Positions 21,952 through 27,138 of a stretch of DNA of 64,000 bases are shown piece after piece. The DNA comes from Terriglobia bacterium (GTDB taxonomy: Bacteria > Acidobacteriota > Terriglobia > Bryobacterales > Bryobacteraceae). The notes beneath the pieces were generated by a model that saw nothing but the letters and a program-made list of their open reading frames with translations, searched no databases and was not told where the DNA came from. The translations under genes were made by a program, and so were the position numbers. Each line of letters opens with the position of its first letter. Positions within the stretch are counted from its first letter, which is position 1. The stretch is from positions 1-64,000 of the forward strand of contig JAIQFS010000038.1 of NCBI GenBank assembly GCA_020073145.1, in the 5' to 3' direction.

Positions 21952-23403
21952 TCAGTACTTCGGCACGCTTGAGTCCACCCGGTCGCTCCACGCCAAAATG
22001 CCGCCCTTCATGTTGCGCACGTGCGGAAAGCCGGCGTTGCGCAGAATGCCGCAAGCCTTCGCGCTGCGCATTCCGCTTTTGCAATGGACTACGATGTCGG
22101 CATTCTGATCGAGTTCGTGCAACCGCTGCGGCACCTCGCCTAGCGGGATCAGCTTCGCGCCCGGAATGTTGCAAATCTTGTATTCGTGCGGTTCGCGCAC
22201 GTCGATCAGCAAGAACTGGTCGCCGCGATCCAGCATGGCCTTCACTTCGGTCACTTCGATTTCGCCTTCGGTCACTTTTGCCTCCGCAACGGGCGCGGCG
22301 TTGGGGCTCGGCACGCCACAGAACTGATGATAGTCGATCAGCTTGGTGATCGTGCGATGCTCGCCGCACATCGGGCATTCCGGGTTCTTGCGCAGCTTCA
22401 ACTCGCGGAACCGCATCCCCAGCGCGTCGTACAGGAGCAGCCGCCCTACCAGCGGCTCGCCAATCCCCAGAATCAGTTTCACCGTTTCCGTCGCCTGGAT
22501 CAGCCCGATGGTCCCCGGTAGAATCCCCAGCACCCCGCCCTCGGCGCAGCTCGGCACCAGCCCCGGCGGTGGCGGCTCAGGATAGAGGCACCGGTAGCAC
22601 GGGCCGCCTTCGTACGCGAACACGGTCGACTGCCCCTCGAACCGGAATATGGAGCCGTACACGTTCGGCTTCCCTAGTAGCACGCACGCGTCGTTCACCA
22701 GGTAGCGCGTCGGAAAGTTATCGGTCCCATCGACAATGAAATCGTAATCCTTGAAAATCTCCAGCGCGTTCTCGCTCGATAGCGCCGTCTCGTGCTTCAC
22801 AATCTTCAGGTATGGATTGATGCCCTGCATCTTCTCCGCGGCCGAGTCCAGCTTCTTGCGCCCTACGTCGGCCGTCGAGTGGATCACCTGCCGCTGCAGG
22901 TTGGTGAAGTCGACCACGTCGAAATCCACGATCCCGATCTTGCCCACGCCCGCCGCCGCCAGATACAGGCCGAGCGGCGCGCCCAGCCCGCCCGCGCCCA
23001 CCAGCAACACCTTCGCCGCCTTCAGCTTCTGCTGTCCTTCGATCCCGACTTCCGGGATGATCAGATGCCGGCTGTACCGCAGAATCTCGTCTTTCGAGAG
23101 CTCGGCGGTCTCGGGCGGCGCTGCCACCGTCGAGCCGCCCGCAATCGACGGCACCAGCGAAATCGTGTCGCCGTCCTTCGCCGCCGTCGCGTCCTTTTTC
23201 AGATACCGGATGTCTTCATCGTTCAGATACACATTGACGAAGCTGCGCAGCTTGCCCTCGTCGTTAAAAATCTGCTTGCGCAGGTCGGGGAACTGCAACG
23301 TGAGCGCGGCCAGCACCTCGCCCACCGTTCCGCCGGACGCGGTCACCGCGTCCTGCTTCCCCGTGAACTGCCGCAGCGGCGTAGGAATTAAGACTTTTGC
23401 CAT
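21952..23403 (-). CDS. CysO-like sulphur carrier / MoeZ-type E1 / rhodanese fusion
   Basis: A 483-residue three-domain protein. Residues 1-90 are a ubiquitin-like carrier close to mycobacterial CysO (KLRSFVNVYLNDEDIRYL, DGDTISLVPSIAGG) whose Gly-Gly (89-90) is followed at once by STVAAPPETAE rather than a free end. Residues 103-350 are a ThiF/MoeB adenylyltransferase: RYSRHLIIPEVGIEGQQKL, VLLVGAGGLGAPLGLYL, DVVDFTNLQRQV, DGTDNFPTRYLVND, plus zinc pairs CYRC and CPMC. Residues 373-483 are a rhodanese with active Cys in HCKSGMRS. The protein would activate and thiolate a carrier for cysteine synthesis, but its own carrier must first be cut free. It starts 1 nt after the JAMM protease stop. Confidence 0.9.
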   Translation of the reverse strand: MAKVLIPTPLRQFTGKQDAVTASGGTVGEVLAALTLQFPDLRKQIFNDEGKLRSFVNVYLNDEDIRYLKKDATAAKDGDTISLVPSIAGGSTVAAPPETAELSKDEILRYSRHLIIPEVGIEGQQKLKAAKVLLVGAGGLGAPLGLYLAAAGVGKIGIVDFDVVDFTNLQRQVIHSTADVGRKKLDSAAEKMQGINPYLKIVKHETALSSENALEIFKDYDFIVDGTDNFPTRYLVNDACVLLGKPNVYGSIFRFEGQSTVFAYEGGPCYRCLYPEPPPPGLVPSCAEGGVLGILPGTIGLIQATETVKLILGIGEPLVGRLLLYDALGMRFRELKLRKNPECPMCGEHRTITKLIDYHQFCGVPSPNAAPVAEAKVTEGEIEVTEVKAMLDRGDQFLLIDVREPHEYKICNIPGAKLIPLGEVPQRLHELDQNADIVVHCKSGMRSAKACGILRNAGFPHVRNMKGGILAWSDRVDSSVPKY

Positions 23404-23404
23404 A

Positions 23405-23821
23405 TCAATAAATCAGCTCCTCTGGGGCTGCCTCGGTCTGCTCGAAGTTCGGCAGCCAGCTATTGGCGTGGTGAAATTCGCCCTTCTGGATCGAGAGCAC
23501 CACGAACGAATACCACGGACAGGAATTCTGCAAATCCGTTTTCGAAAAATACGCATCGCAGTCCGGGTGCGAATGGTAGATCCCGATCAGGTCCATCTTC
23601 CTCTCGCGCGCCGCTTTGTCGGCGGCCAGCAGGTCTTCCGGCCGCAGTTCGTACCGTGCTGCCTGCGCGCCTTGAAAGGCATTCTTCAACTCCAGCGCCA
23701 CCCGCACCACCTTGGCGCCATCGTCGGCCGAGCCCAGCATGGCCCCGCAACATTCGTTTGGATAGGTTGCGCGGGCGTGCGACACCATCGCCGCCCACGG
23801 TTCAGATTCGATTCGGATCAT
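23405..23821 (-). CDS. JAMM/MPN+ metalloprotease (Mec-like)
   Basis: A 138-residue zinc peptidase of the JAB1/MPN family. The JAMM motif is complete: catalytic Glu in YPNECCG (about 23), then HSHPDCDAYFSKTD with both His, Ser and Asp. In mycobacteria Mec cleaves the CysO-cysteine bond and releases cysteine. Here it lies between a CysM-like synthase and a CysO-MoeZ fusion, with an ATGA overlap to cysM upstream and 1 nt to the fusion downstream. It can plausibly serve both to trim the buried Gly-Gly and to hydrolyse CysO-Cys. Confidence 0.9.
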   Translation of the reverse strand: MIRIESEPWAAMVSHARATYPNECCGAMLGSADDGAKVVRVALELKNAFQGAQAARYELRPEDLLAADKAARERKMDLIGIYHSHPDCDAYFSKTDLQNSCPWYSFVVLSIQKGEFHHANSWLPNFEQTEAAPEELIY

Positions 23822-24771
23822 TCCTCGTCCCAGAAATGCTCGCTCAAGTATTTTTCGGCGCTGTCGCACAGCATGGTCACGATCGTAGCCGCCTCGCCCC
23901 GCTCCGCCAGTTCGCGCGCCAGCAGCGTCGCCGCGTGTACATTGCAGCCCGAGGAAATCCCCACCAGGATGCCTTCCTCTCGCGCCATCCGCCGCACTCG
24001 GGTGTACGCGTCCTCGGTCTCGATCCACAAATTGCCATCCGCAATCTGATCGTCATAAATGCCCGGCACGATGGCCGTCGGCATGTGCTTCAATCCTTCC
24101 AGCCCGTGGAATCCGCTCGAGGGCTGCGCCGAATAGCACTTCACGTGCGGCATGTCGCGCCGCAGACGCCGGCTCACCCCCATGAACGTGCCGCTGGTCC
24201 CCATGGCCGTCACAAAGTGCGTGATCCGCCCACCGGTCTGTTGGATGATCTCCGGCCCCGTGTGCTCGAAGTGCGCTTTCCAATTCGCCGGGTTGTTGTA
24301 CTGGTCGGGATAAAAATAAATGTCGGGGTCGGCGTTGTAAATCTCGCGGCACAGCCGGATTGCCCCGTCGGAGCCTTCCCCCGCGTCGCTGAATACCATC
24401 TCAGCCCCGTAGGCCTTCAGGATTCGCTTGCGCTCGATCGATGCATTGGCCGGCAGCACCAGCTTGATCTTGTAGCCGCGCACCGCGCCGATCATGGCAT
24501 ACGCAATGCCCGTGTTCCCGCTCGTTGCGTCCAGCAACGTTCGCTGATGGTTGAGCTTGCCCGAGCGCTCGCCGTCCAGAATCATGTTCATCGCCGCCCG
24601 GTCTTTCACCGAGCCGCCCGGATTGTAGAACTCGGCCTTTCCCAGAATCTCGATTCCCGGGTATGGTTGCGACGTCTTCTCCAGACGCACCAGCGGCGTA
24701 TTGCCGATGGTCGCCAGCAGCGGCTCGGCTTCCGGCCGTCTCGGATTGGGAACAGGCAGAACTTGCGCCAT
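23818..24771 (-). CDS. cysM: CysM-type cysteine synthase (probably CysO/O-phosphoserine dependent)
   Basis: A PLP enzyme of the beta-substitution family, 317 residues. The PLP lysine lies in YNPGGSVKDRAAMNMI, the substrate loop is ATSGNTGIAYAMIGA, and GTSGTFMGVSRRLR binds the phosphate. The C-terminal SSGCNVHAATLLAREL closes the fold. Context with Mec and CysO points to the mycobacterial CysM reaction, O-phosphoserine plus thiocarboxylated CysO, rather than sulphide-using CysK. ATG 24771 has AAAAAGG upstream; the longer frame would need a TTG at 24831. First of three coupled genes. Confidence 0.9.
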   Translation of the reverse strand: MAQVLPVPNPRRPEAEPLLATIGNTPLVRLEKTSQPYPGIEILGKAEFYNPGGSVKDRAAMNMILDGERSGKLNHQRTLLDATSGNTGIAYAMIGAVRGYKIKLVLPANASIERKRILKAYGAEMVFSDAGEGSDGAIRLCREIYNADPDIYFYPDQYNNPANWKAHFEHTGPEIIQQTGGRITHFVTAMGTSGTFMGVSRRLRRDMPHVKCYSAQPSSGFHGLEGLKHMPTAIVPGIYDDQIADGNLWIETEDAYTRVRRMAREEGILVGISSGCNVHAATLLARELAERGEAATIVTMLCDSAEKYLSEHFWDEE

Positions 24772-24968
24772 GAGTACCTTTTTGGATTCACTCCTCCGCC
24801 GCACCGATGCAAACATCGCATCCTTCTGCAACTAAAGGAATTATCGACTCTCTGGGTGCTTTCTCATTCTACCATTGCGTCCGTCGCTGTCAATGAACCA
24901 AAAGCCGGCCAACCTGCCCGCACTCCGAGGCCGGTGCCGGCCCCCAGTCGCCGCTCTCCGCGCCTCTC

Positions 24969-26369
24969 CTAACTTTCCGAAACCACCGGCAGTTTGGCCG
25001 CCTCCCACGCGGCCATGCCGCCCGCCATCTCCATCAGATTCGTGATCCCGTACTGGTGCAGAATGCTGGCCGCGATGGAGGAGCGGTACCCGCCCGCGCA
25101 ATGCACCGCAATGCGGCGGTCCCGCGGAATCTCGGCGACGCGCTCTTGCAGATGGTTGAGCGGTAGGTTCACGCTGCCGCGCACATGCTTGGTGGCCCAC
25201 TCGCGCGGTGAACGCACATCCAGCAGCAGGGGCGGGTCGGCCGCACTCAATTCCTCAGCCACGATCGGCACCCCGGCCCGCTCCGTCGGCCACACTAAGT
25301 CCGGCCGGTCGGCCAGCGCCGCCATCCCTCCCGGCAGGTAGCCTGTCACGTGATCGAAACCAATCCGGCCCAGGCGCAACGCGGCTTCCTGCTCTCGCCC
25401 CGGCTCCGCGATGATCACGATCGGCTTGGCTCGGTCGAGCACCGTCCCCGCCCACGTTGCGTACTGGCAGCCGAGCCCGATATTGATGCTGCCCGCCAGG
25501 TGCCCTTGTCCGTACTCGGCGGCGTCACGGACGTCCAGAATCTGTGCGCCCGCATCCCCCATCCGCAGAACCTCGTCCAGTTCGATGGGCCGCAAAACCT
25601 GTTCGAGGTTCTTGTCCAGCGTGGTCCGCTCGCGTGTGTTGAGGATGGCGTCGTAGGTGAAGTACGCCGGGGCGTCTGGTTGGTCGGCCGTGACCAGGCG
25701 GATGAATTCCTCCTTCGACATCGGCTGCAGCGCGTAGTTCAACAGGCGTTGATCTCCCAGCGAAGACACCGTGTCGGAGGAAAGCTTCTTGCCGCAGAGC
25801 GAGCCGGCGCCGTGAGCCGGGTAGACCAGCGTCTGGTCGGGTAGCGGCAAGAGCTGCTTGTGCAGCGAGTCGTACAAGTGCGCGCCCAGGTCACTGGCGG
25901 TCCAGCCCAGCGAAGCGCGCAGGTCCGGACGGCCCACGTCACCGATAAAGAGAGTGTCTCCGGTGAGCACGGCATAGGGTTTTACCCGGTCCTGATTGAG
26001 GTCGAAGACCAAAATGGAGATGGACTCGATGGTGTGGCCCGGAGTCTCGAGAACCTGCAGGCGCAGCCCTGGAAAATCCAGCGTGTCGCCGTTCTGCATC
26101 GCCACGAAGGCGTATTCCGCCTGAGCGCGCGCGCCCAAGTGCAGCATCGCCCCGCACCGGTCGCGCAATTCCAGGTGGCCCGCCACGAAGTCGGCGTGGA
26201 AGTGGCTAAGGAAGACGTGGCGGATCTGGAGCCCCTGCTTCTCCGCATCGGCCACATACTGCTGGATGTCGCGCTGGGGATCGACAATAATGGCGGTCGC
26301 GCTGGCCTCGTCTCCAACCAGATACGACGCGTGGGCCAGGCAGCCCAGGTAGTACTGTTGCAGGATCAT
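24969..26369 (-). CDS. Persulfide dioxygenase-like MBL protein with two rhodanese domains
   Basis: A 466-residue protein. The N-terminal 250 residues are an ETHE1/Blh-type metallo-beta-lactamase fold, with HFHADFVAGH, ETPGHTIESI, GDTLFIGDVGRPDL and YPAHGAGSLCG, expected to oxidise glutathione persulfide to sulfite. Two rhodanese domains follow. The first (about 270-360) has no cysteine in the active loop (IAEPGREQEA); the second (about 370-460) has HCAGGYRSS. ATG 26369 gives the family start MILQQYYLGCLAHASYLVGD. It lies just upstream of the cysteine genes on the same strand and belongs to the same sulphur theme. Confidence 0.9.
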   Translation of the reverse strand: MILQQYYLGCLAHASYLVGDEASATAIIVDPQRDIQQYVADAEKQGLQIRHVFLSHFHADFVAGHLELRDRCGAMLHLGARAQAEYAFVAMQNGDTLDFPGLRLQVLETPGHTIESISILVFDLNQDRVKPYAVLTGDTLFIGDVGRPDLRASLGWTASDLGAHLYDSLHKQLLPLPDQTLVYPAHGAGSLCGKKLSSDTVSSLGDQRLLNYALQPMSKEEFIRLVTADQPDAPAYFTYDAILNTRERTTLDKNLEQVLRPIELDEVLRMGDAGAQILDVRDAAEYGQGHLAGSINIGLGCQYATWAGTVLDRAKPIVIIAEPGREQEAALRLGRIGFDHVTGYLPGGMAALADRPDLVWPTERAGVPIVAEELSAADPPLLLDVRSPREWATKHVRGSVNLPLNHLQERVAEIPRDRRIAVHCAGGYRSSIAASILHQYGITNLMEMAGGMAAWEAAKLPVVSES

Positions 26370-27138
26370 GAGCTCTATAAGTGTAACGCCCGCGAGTGCA
26401 ATCGTCCGCCGGAGGGCGTCGCGGCATGCTAAAATTCCAGTAAGCAATGCTCACCGACCTGAAGTTGGTGGTTCGCCTCCAGGAAATTGACCTGCGGCTG
26501 GCGGATCTCTCGCGGGAAATCACCGCGCTCCCCAAACACATCGCTGAAATCGAAAAAAAACTGGGTTCGCACGAACGCAAGCTCGAGGCCGACCGCGCCG
26601 CGCTGGCCGGCAACCAGAAAGAGCGTAAGCAGTGCGAGGCCGAAATCCAGATCCAGGAGCAGAAGATCTCCAAGCTCAAGGATCAAATGCTCCAGGCCAA
26701 GACCAACGAGCAATACCGCGCTTTCCAGCATGAGATCGAATTCTGCGAAAAGGAAATCCGCAAGTCCGAGGACCGCATTCTCGAGTTGATGTCCGAATCC
26801 GAGCCGCTGGACAAAAATGTCAAAGCGGCGGAAGCCGCGCTCAAGGCCGAGCGGGCGCAGGTCGAAAGCGAGAAGCAGGAAGCGCGAGCCCGCACCGCGG
26901 TGGATGAAAAAGCCGCCGCCGAATTGCAGCAGGAGCGCGCCGGCATGGTGGCGCAGATTGCTCCTCCCCACTACCAGCTCTACGAAAAGGCCCGCAAGGC
27001 CCGCCGCGGAATTGGCGTCGCCGAAGCCGTCGCCGGCCGTTGCAGCGCGTGCCAGATGGCTTTGCGCCCCCAGTTCGCGCAGGAGCTCAAAAGAGGCGAC
27101 AAGGTGATGTCCTGCGAAAGCTGCCAGCGCATCCTCTA

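Follow-up and report, generated by a model that had tools for sequence, protein, structure and literature searches.

A CysO-type sulphur carrier fused to a MoeB/MoeZ-type E1-rhodanese beside a JAMM protease gene: a probable precursor and its capped relatives

Ubiquitin and several related proteins arise from precursors that a protease opens, and sulphur carriers such as MoaD, ThiS and CysO need a free C-terminal glycine for adenylation. In Caldiarchaeum a JAMM protease exposes the C-terminal glycine of a ubiquitin-like (Ubl) precursor, pro-ubiquitin, and QbsE is a capped carrier that is handled together with QbsD. Previous studies reported that in BilABCD, too, a JAMM uncovers the C-terminal glycine, again on a Ubl precursor (PMC11354881), that M. 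tuberculosis MoaX undergoes cleavage at Gly82|Ser83, with both glycines being important (PMC4326299), that the JAMM DR0402 cuts the Deinococcus MoaD-MoaE fusion DR2607 (PMC8832034), and that the capped carriers PtmS2 and PtmS3 go with the JAMM PtmS1, whose gene ptmS1 is needed for the product (PMC6006322, which also treats QbsD). Archaeal Ubl-E1 fusions that bacteria share have been mentioned (PMC2948915). In 2006 Iyer, Burroughs and Aravind described operon type 4c, with ThiS/MoaD, E1-rhodanese, JAB and cysteine synthase genes, listed it for the acidobacterium 'Susi' (which we read as Solibacter usitatus), and proposed that the JAB might cleave off a fused ThiS/MoaD, giving a free end for sulphur transfer (PMC1779556); operon type 4c, as given in the accessible part of that paper, names neither a carrier-E1-rhodanese fusion nor carrier tails.

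In the window (the whole 64,000-nucleotide stretch of Terriglobia DNA analysed here) a carrier with an internal Gly-Gly is fused to a partner enzyme and the genome has a complete JAMM, both of them features of the MoaX/DR2607 kind. MoaX and DR2607 share with it the position of the carrier N-terminal to the partner enzyme and the internal Gly-Gly, and there the cut is needed for activity (PMC4326299, PMC8832034); their partner, however, is MoaE, a sulphur user, whereas in the window it is an activating E1-rhodanese and the JAMM gene is adjacent. In QbsE, PtmS2 and PtmS3 the Gly-Gly is hidden under extra residues, as in the split relatives of the window fusion, but PtmS2 and PtmS3 belong to secondary metabolism and their caps are 1-2 residues long, whereas the cap in the window is a whole E1-rhodanese. 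BilABCD and the Caldiarchaeum system serve protein conjugation with an E2, unlike the sulphur transfer predicted here. The mycobacterial CysM/CysO/Mec/MoeZR route has a homologous carrier, E1-rhodanese, JAMM and cysteine synthase, but M. tuberculosis CysO stands alone as a protein and its solved chain (3dwg_C) terminates in Gly-Gly, whereas the window carrier is fused and has no free end, and the window synthase is closer to E. coli CysM. Since the M. tuberculosis CysO chain ends in Gly-Gly despite the JAMM Mec in its pathway (PMC3227635), a JAMM in a pathway need not mean a cap.

In the literature searched, with subscription papers mostly outside reach, we found no description of a carrier-E1-rhodanese fusion or of JAMM processing of one, and no report of cleavage in this family. 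The hypothesis of JAMM release is old, having been printed in 2006 (PMC1779556), and similar steps have been reported for MoaD-MoaE and for short-tailed carriers; new as far as searched are the E1 as cap, the spread of the fusion, the consistent capping and the cysteine-rich tails. The precursor logic of ubiquitin appears to be at work here in environmental bacteria, in a primary sulphur pathway whose activating enzyme serves as the cap. This is relevant to the question of how JAMM proteases became associated with Ubl precursors before eukaryotes.

The fusion protein and its neighbouring genes

The stop-free translation of window:21952-23403:- is a 483-aa protein whose chain continues beyond residues 86-90, SIAGG (STVAAPPETAELSKDEILRYSRH). 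Its parts and the genes upstream are as follows.

23134..23403, minus strand: CysO-type ubiquitin-like carrier domain, residues 1-90, ending Gly89-Gly90 (Pfam ThiS)
23104..23133, minus strand: linker, residues 91-100, with the predicted scissile bond Gly90-Ser91 at its start
22309..23103, minus strand: MoeB/MoeZ-type E1 (adenylyltransferase), about residues 101-365 (Pfam ThiF)
21955..22308, minus strand: rhodanese domain, about residues 366-483, active-site loop CKSGMR (Pfam Rhodanese)
23405..23821, minus strand: JAMM/MPN+ metalloprotease, predicted maturase, 138 aa (Pfam Prok-JAB, 88.9 bits; NECCG, HSHP...S..D)
23818..24831, minus strand: CysM-type cysteine synthase (Pfam PALP, 219.8 bits), starting at TTG 24831 or at an inner start
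24969..26447, minus strand: metallo-beta-lactamase fold with two rhodanese domains, upstream of cysM (Pfam Lactamase_B, and Rhodanese in two stretches)

Translation and Pfam confirmed the original prediction that residues 1-90 of this protein end in SIAGG yet run on into a linker and an E1: ThiS matches residues 4-90 (51.7 bits, cut-off 22.5), ThiF residues 110-344 (279.6 bits) and Rhodanese residues 384-474 (76.2 bits). The E1 scores above the cut-offs of both NCBIfam MoeB models, NF006444 and NF004281, and below that of the MoeZ model NF005902 (539.3 bits, cut-off 647), and C441 of the rhodanese domain is invariant in 32/32 rows of alignment A2. The best solved carrier match of the fused carrier domain is M. 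tuberculosis CysO (E 1.4e-17), and G90 pairs with the final residue of this chain (3dwg_C, 93/93) as well as with that of another solved carrier (4n6e_B, 90/90). In the AlphaFold model of the fusion the domains are mostly well predicted and pLDDT falls below 50 at residues 89-99, 285-289 and 365-378; residues 89-99 are modelled as a low-confidence, open joint between well-predicted domains, starting at the Gly-Gly.

A complete JAMM gene 1 nt upstream of the fusion and a CysM-type gene overlapping it had also been claimed, and both were borne out: a single nucleotide lies between the JAMM stop and the fusion ATG (..TGA T ATG..), and the end of the CysM-type ORF (23818) overlaps the JAMM start by 4 nt. 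The zinc-site residues of the JAMM (Glu, HxH, Ser, Asp), E23, H83, S84, H85, S93 and D96, are invariant in 37/37 aligned sequences, namely the window's JAMM and 36 of 49 listed JAMM stretches. Its AlphaFold model (pLDDT 95.7) has the structural-genomics JAMMs 2kks and 2kcq as best fold matches, with the PfJAMM1-SAMP2 complex and that of the Caldiarchaeum Rpn11 homolog with ubiquitin among the lower ones, and the protein falls below the haloarchaeal desampylase model NF041370 (64.5 bits, cut-off 130). The synthase scores 353.5 bits with TIGR01138 cysM, below the cut-off of 394.2, and 345.2 bits with TIGR01136 cysKM, barely above 344.15, and it scores higher with E. coli CysM (244.5 bits) than with M. 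tuberculosis CysM (209.1 bits). The metallo-beta-lactamase/double-rhodanese protein (24969-26447, -) is a possible supplier of sulphane sulphur to the E1-rhodanese.

The carrier needs a free C-terminal glycine and the fused Gly-Gly is strictly conserved; therefore, a cut after Gly90 is indicated, and we consider it very probable that the fusion is a precursor which the adjacent JAMM cuts after Gly90. We infer cleavage, thiolation, use in cysteine synthesis and a second substrate, whereas sequence or model show the domains, the order of the genes and their conserved linkage, a Gly-Gly that never varies, a linker that does vary and is disordered, and the full set of catalytic residues. The JAMM would cut the Gly90-Ser91 bond; a carrier of 90 residues would be set free with its Gly-Gly exposed, and the MoeB/MoeZ-type E1-rhodanese would be left with a short, superfluous N-terminal extension. 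The E1 would adenylate Gly90, the rhodanese would then make the Gly90 thiocarboxylate, and the sulphur would most likely pass to the CysM-type synthase. The JAMM may also free cysteine from a carrier-cysteine adduct, as in mycobacteria. Capping by the E1 would couple carrier supply to E1 supply.

Spread of the fusion and its exchange with split forms

Some domain of the 483-aa protein is matched in 377/396 genomes of the phylum, and the fused form is present in at least 90/396, the window's genome included, where fused means that the match begins no later than residue 4 and contains no inner stop; 80 of these loci were read and the other 10 were counted by match coverage alone. Together with 45 loci with unfused E1, the 80 fused ones make up the phylum loci read. 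P85, A88, G89 and G90 are retained in 80/80 fused loci, in the contexts PSIAGG (40), PSVAGG (33) and PAIAGG (7); the residue after the Gly-Gly varies (S 31, A 29, V 8, T 8, N 3, Q 1), and the linker, 3-32 aa long, is not conserved. Neither G89 nor G90 varies in alignment A1 (26 rows) or A2 (32 rows), and in A2, which spans several phyla, A88 is kept together with them in 32/32 rows. Among the best 80 matches, the nearest named relative of the fusion is a Solibacteraceae MAG (L152; 82% over 125 aa, 86% over the whole protein), and the named genomes with fused loci outside the phylum belong to Chloroflexota, Gemmatimonadota, Ignavibacteriota, Bacteroidota, Bacillota, Kiritimatiellota, Omnitrophota and Myxococcota, together with a KSB1 MAG, a Succinivibrionaceae genome and an archaeal MAG, binning errors being possible for single MAGs. 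The fusion is not due to chance, as it recurs in the phylum and in further phyla. Fused carriers of Ruminococcus, Clostridia, Selenomonas ruminantium and Succinivibrionaceae (L192, L199, L200, L203, L206) fall in one supported clade, which suggests horizontal transfer.

On the E1 tree (125 rows) the fused label changes 17 times, and at least 8 of these changes are forced by well-supported branches. The window's own family holds both forms (L091 and L092 are split), and in L050 the carrier and E1 are parted solely by a stop codon in the linker, with a possible restart downstream. Judged from this tree and these loci, fused and split forms have interchanged repeatedly. Such traffic is hard to square with a fused domain without carrier function, and it bears on the alternative that this domain serves the E1 permanently for docking or regulation while free carriers do the work. 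Ubl-ThiF fusions beside stand-alone ThiS have been reported, and Iyer and colleagues suggested that in Campylobacter-type ThiF the Ub-like domain has a different role (PMC1779556). With the Gly-Gly kept in every fused phylum locus read while the linker drifts, and with the fused domain repeatedly exchanged with split carriers, we regard a docking domain as unlikely.

Capped split carriers and linkage to JAMM

The combined set comprised 184 loci: 113 fused, 55 free carriers with 1-26 residues past the Gly-Gly, and 16 ending exactly at Gly-Gly. Dropped before this count were the own-genome repeats L001, L002, L004, L005 and L008, loci L135-L151, rows with a carrier below 45 bits, exact repeats of other loci (L074, L055, L157), and L003 and L109, which represent other carrier families and sit on very long branches. 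Four fused loci, one tailed locus and one ending at Gly-Gly, with less than 900 bp upstream and no JAMM seen there, were left unscored for JAMM. The original prediction had proposed to count the fusions with an adjacent JAMM gene, and among loci with enough flank the JAMM is directly upstream in 96/109 fused loci, in 45/54 tailed ones and in 0/15 carriers ending at Gly-Gly (0/17 with L003 and L109). Where fusions have no JAMM upstream, one occurs elsewhere in 12/13 genomes; no JAMM was seen in two fused genomes, a Clostridia MAG (that of L200) and G140 (91% complete). Of the 9 tailed loci without JAMM upstream, 2 have one downstream within the same locus, and for the other 7 it lies at another site of the genome. 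A JAMM over cut-off is also found in 8/16 genomes with uncapped carriers (at 50 bits or more in 6/16), so that the mere presence of a JAMM is weak evidence; downstream of two uncapped Myxococcota carriers (L202, L216), at a distance of about 1.3 kb, there is a weaker JAMM.

For free carriers, Fisher's test of tail against JAMM upstream (45/9 vs 0/15) gives 2e-9 with kinship ignored. On the carrier tree the cap state changes just 4 times, with 2 independent pairs on well-supported branches, which are too few for a kinship-corrected test of the association between cap and JAMM. On this tree the association is largely one of clades, with few independent lineages: one supported clade holds 115 fused rows and 51 tailed rows (repeats kept in) and, of the Gly-Gly-ending rows, only L003, whose place is unsure because of its long branch. 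As 10/16 uncapped rows are verrucomicrobial, the contrast of capped with uncapped carriers counts few independent events. Gene overlap was considered as the source of the tails and rejected for most tailed loci: in 14/55 the carrier stop is overlapped by the next start or is no more than 4 nt away from it, and in others the stop is well ahead of the E1 start, or no E1 is close behind, and the tail is still present.

The tails of the split carriers are rich in cysteine, which makes up 42/304 residues and occurs in 26/55 tails, a count inflated by kinship because 25/26 Cys-bearing tails lie in the window's phylum. In 25/26 the Cys is within the last five residues, and the Cys-rich tails differ widely in sequence. 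Cys makes up 3/1072 residues of the fusion linkers, 2/360, 0/352 and 0/392 of the last eight residues of the neighbouring JAMM, CysM and E1-rhodanese proteins, respectively, and 71/3093 residues of downstream DNA read in three frames. The tail is a lone Cys in L105, L106 and L204, and PtmS3 has a lone Cys cap too.

None of the 45 free carriers with the JAMM gene directly upstream lacks a tail (1-18 residues past the Gly-Gly): the stop always leaves a tail and never a Gly-Gly end. This count also bears on a separation of the parts at translation, through an inner E1 start or premature termination and without a protease. An in-frame GTG lies inside the linker of the window fusion, and the linker of L050 has its stop codon and possible restart. 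An inner start, however, cannot free the C-terminus of the carrier, and Met, the only kind of start counted here, occurs in just 3/80 linkers; with the tails of the 45 split loci, separation at translation seems very improbable to us.

It could also be that the precursor is cut by another protease or by itself, and that the JAMM splits just the carrier-cysteine adduct. Mec acts in this manner on CysO-cysteine (PMC3227635), and the 2015 paper on MoaX (PMC4326299) did not name the protease that cuts it. JAMMs do, however, cut or uncap carriers in such published cases as we found (PMC8832034, PMC6006322), and in our set JAMM linkage goes with capping, though over few independent pairs; we give this division of labour little weight. 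Release by the adjacent JAMM is supported by comparison, namely by the invariant Gly-Gly, the disordered variable linker, the JAMM adjoining or elsewhere in the genome, the interchange of forms and the tails on split carriers.

Within the JAMM-linked clade, 0/51 free carriers end at Gly-Gly, with L003 set aside for its unsure place. We tentatively suggest, as a possibility that we do not favour over its contrary, that capping is obligatory and useful in this clade, so that every carrier must pass the JAMM before use by the E1. The gene would then make a ready-conjugated carrier, joined to its own E1 or to a tail that often has a Cys near the end, and a lone-Cys tail would be the same carrier-cysteine adduct that the cysteine route would make. 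If this is true, maturation would coincide with the last cysteine-release step in a single reaction, and carrier pool and flux alike would be set by the JAMM.

In 12/16 uncapped loci (AIAGG/AVAGG ends; L208-L211, L214, L218, L220-L222, L225, L226, L230) there is a weak two-stretch match to the CysM profile upstream (56-71 bits) and no JAMM upstream, and these loci perhaps belong to a different sulphur route. At L058:3537-5393 (-), the lone case among the loci read and one of the 96 fused loci counted with JAMM upstream, JAMM, carrier, E1 and rhodanese lie in a single open frame of 619 codons, possibly a self-processing polyprotein or an assembly error.

Other carriers in the genome and a second candidate substrate

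A Pfam ThiS search of the genome returned four carriers: the fused one, L001, L003 and L004. L001 (L001:1501-2202) is a MoaD-MoaE fusion with an internal Gly-Gly, reading PPVSGG|SDPD; L003 is a free CysO-like carrier of 107 aa that ends AVSGG and whose best PDB match is again M. tuberculosis CysO (E 6.6e-14); and L004 is ThiS, with an end read by eye as VGGG. At L003:1441-2880 the free carrier is directly followed by a BNR/sortilin-type repeat protein. E1-family matches in the genome are the fusion, the rhodanese-less L006 and a weak partial match, L007, and JAMM-family matches are the window's JAMM (88.4 bits) and an unlike 546-aa protein, L009 (26.8 bits). One typical JAMM therefore faces two carriers with a buried Gly-Gly in this genome. 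As the JAMM next to the fusion is the only strong one found in the genome, it probably also opens the MoaD-MoaE fusion as a second substrate. The many natural fused and split relatives, with one typical JAMM and two candidate substrates here, offer direct tests of precursor processing.

The search for a free CysO elsewhere in the genome, a check named in advance, thus gave L003. Of the original prediction, release by the JAMM after Gly90 is supported by our sequence comparison, and self-supply of the carrier is right only in part: an exclusive supply is not supported, since L003 and L001 are also present. A stand-alone CysO-like gene had been named, together with a fused domain lacking carrier function, as grounds for refutation; the gene exists, and the loss of function is contradicted by conservation. 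The free L003 does favour the docking domain weighed above, as do the free CysO-like carriers ending in Gly-Gly in three of the six fused relatives searched whole (G132, G377, G425); against it, no such carrier was found by whole-genome search in the other three, G226 (77% complete), G424 and G426. Eight relatives were searched whole in all (G132, G187, G226, G289, G377, G424, G425, G426), six of them with the fused carrier. Such pairing of buried carriers is seen again among them: MoaD-MoaE fusions were found in 6/8 (G132, G187, G289, G377, G424, G426) and not seen in G226 or G425 by the same search. Of 8 ThiS-like carriers in the relatives searched, 2 are tailed, VGGG being followed by ATVS or SL (L254, L267), and another carrier of the relatives (L272) is tailed as well, with VISGG followed by AA; tails thus occur outside the CysO type too, and caps may be commoner than that type.
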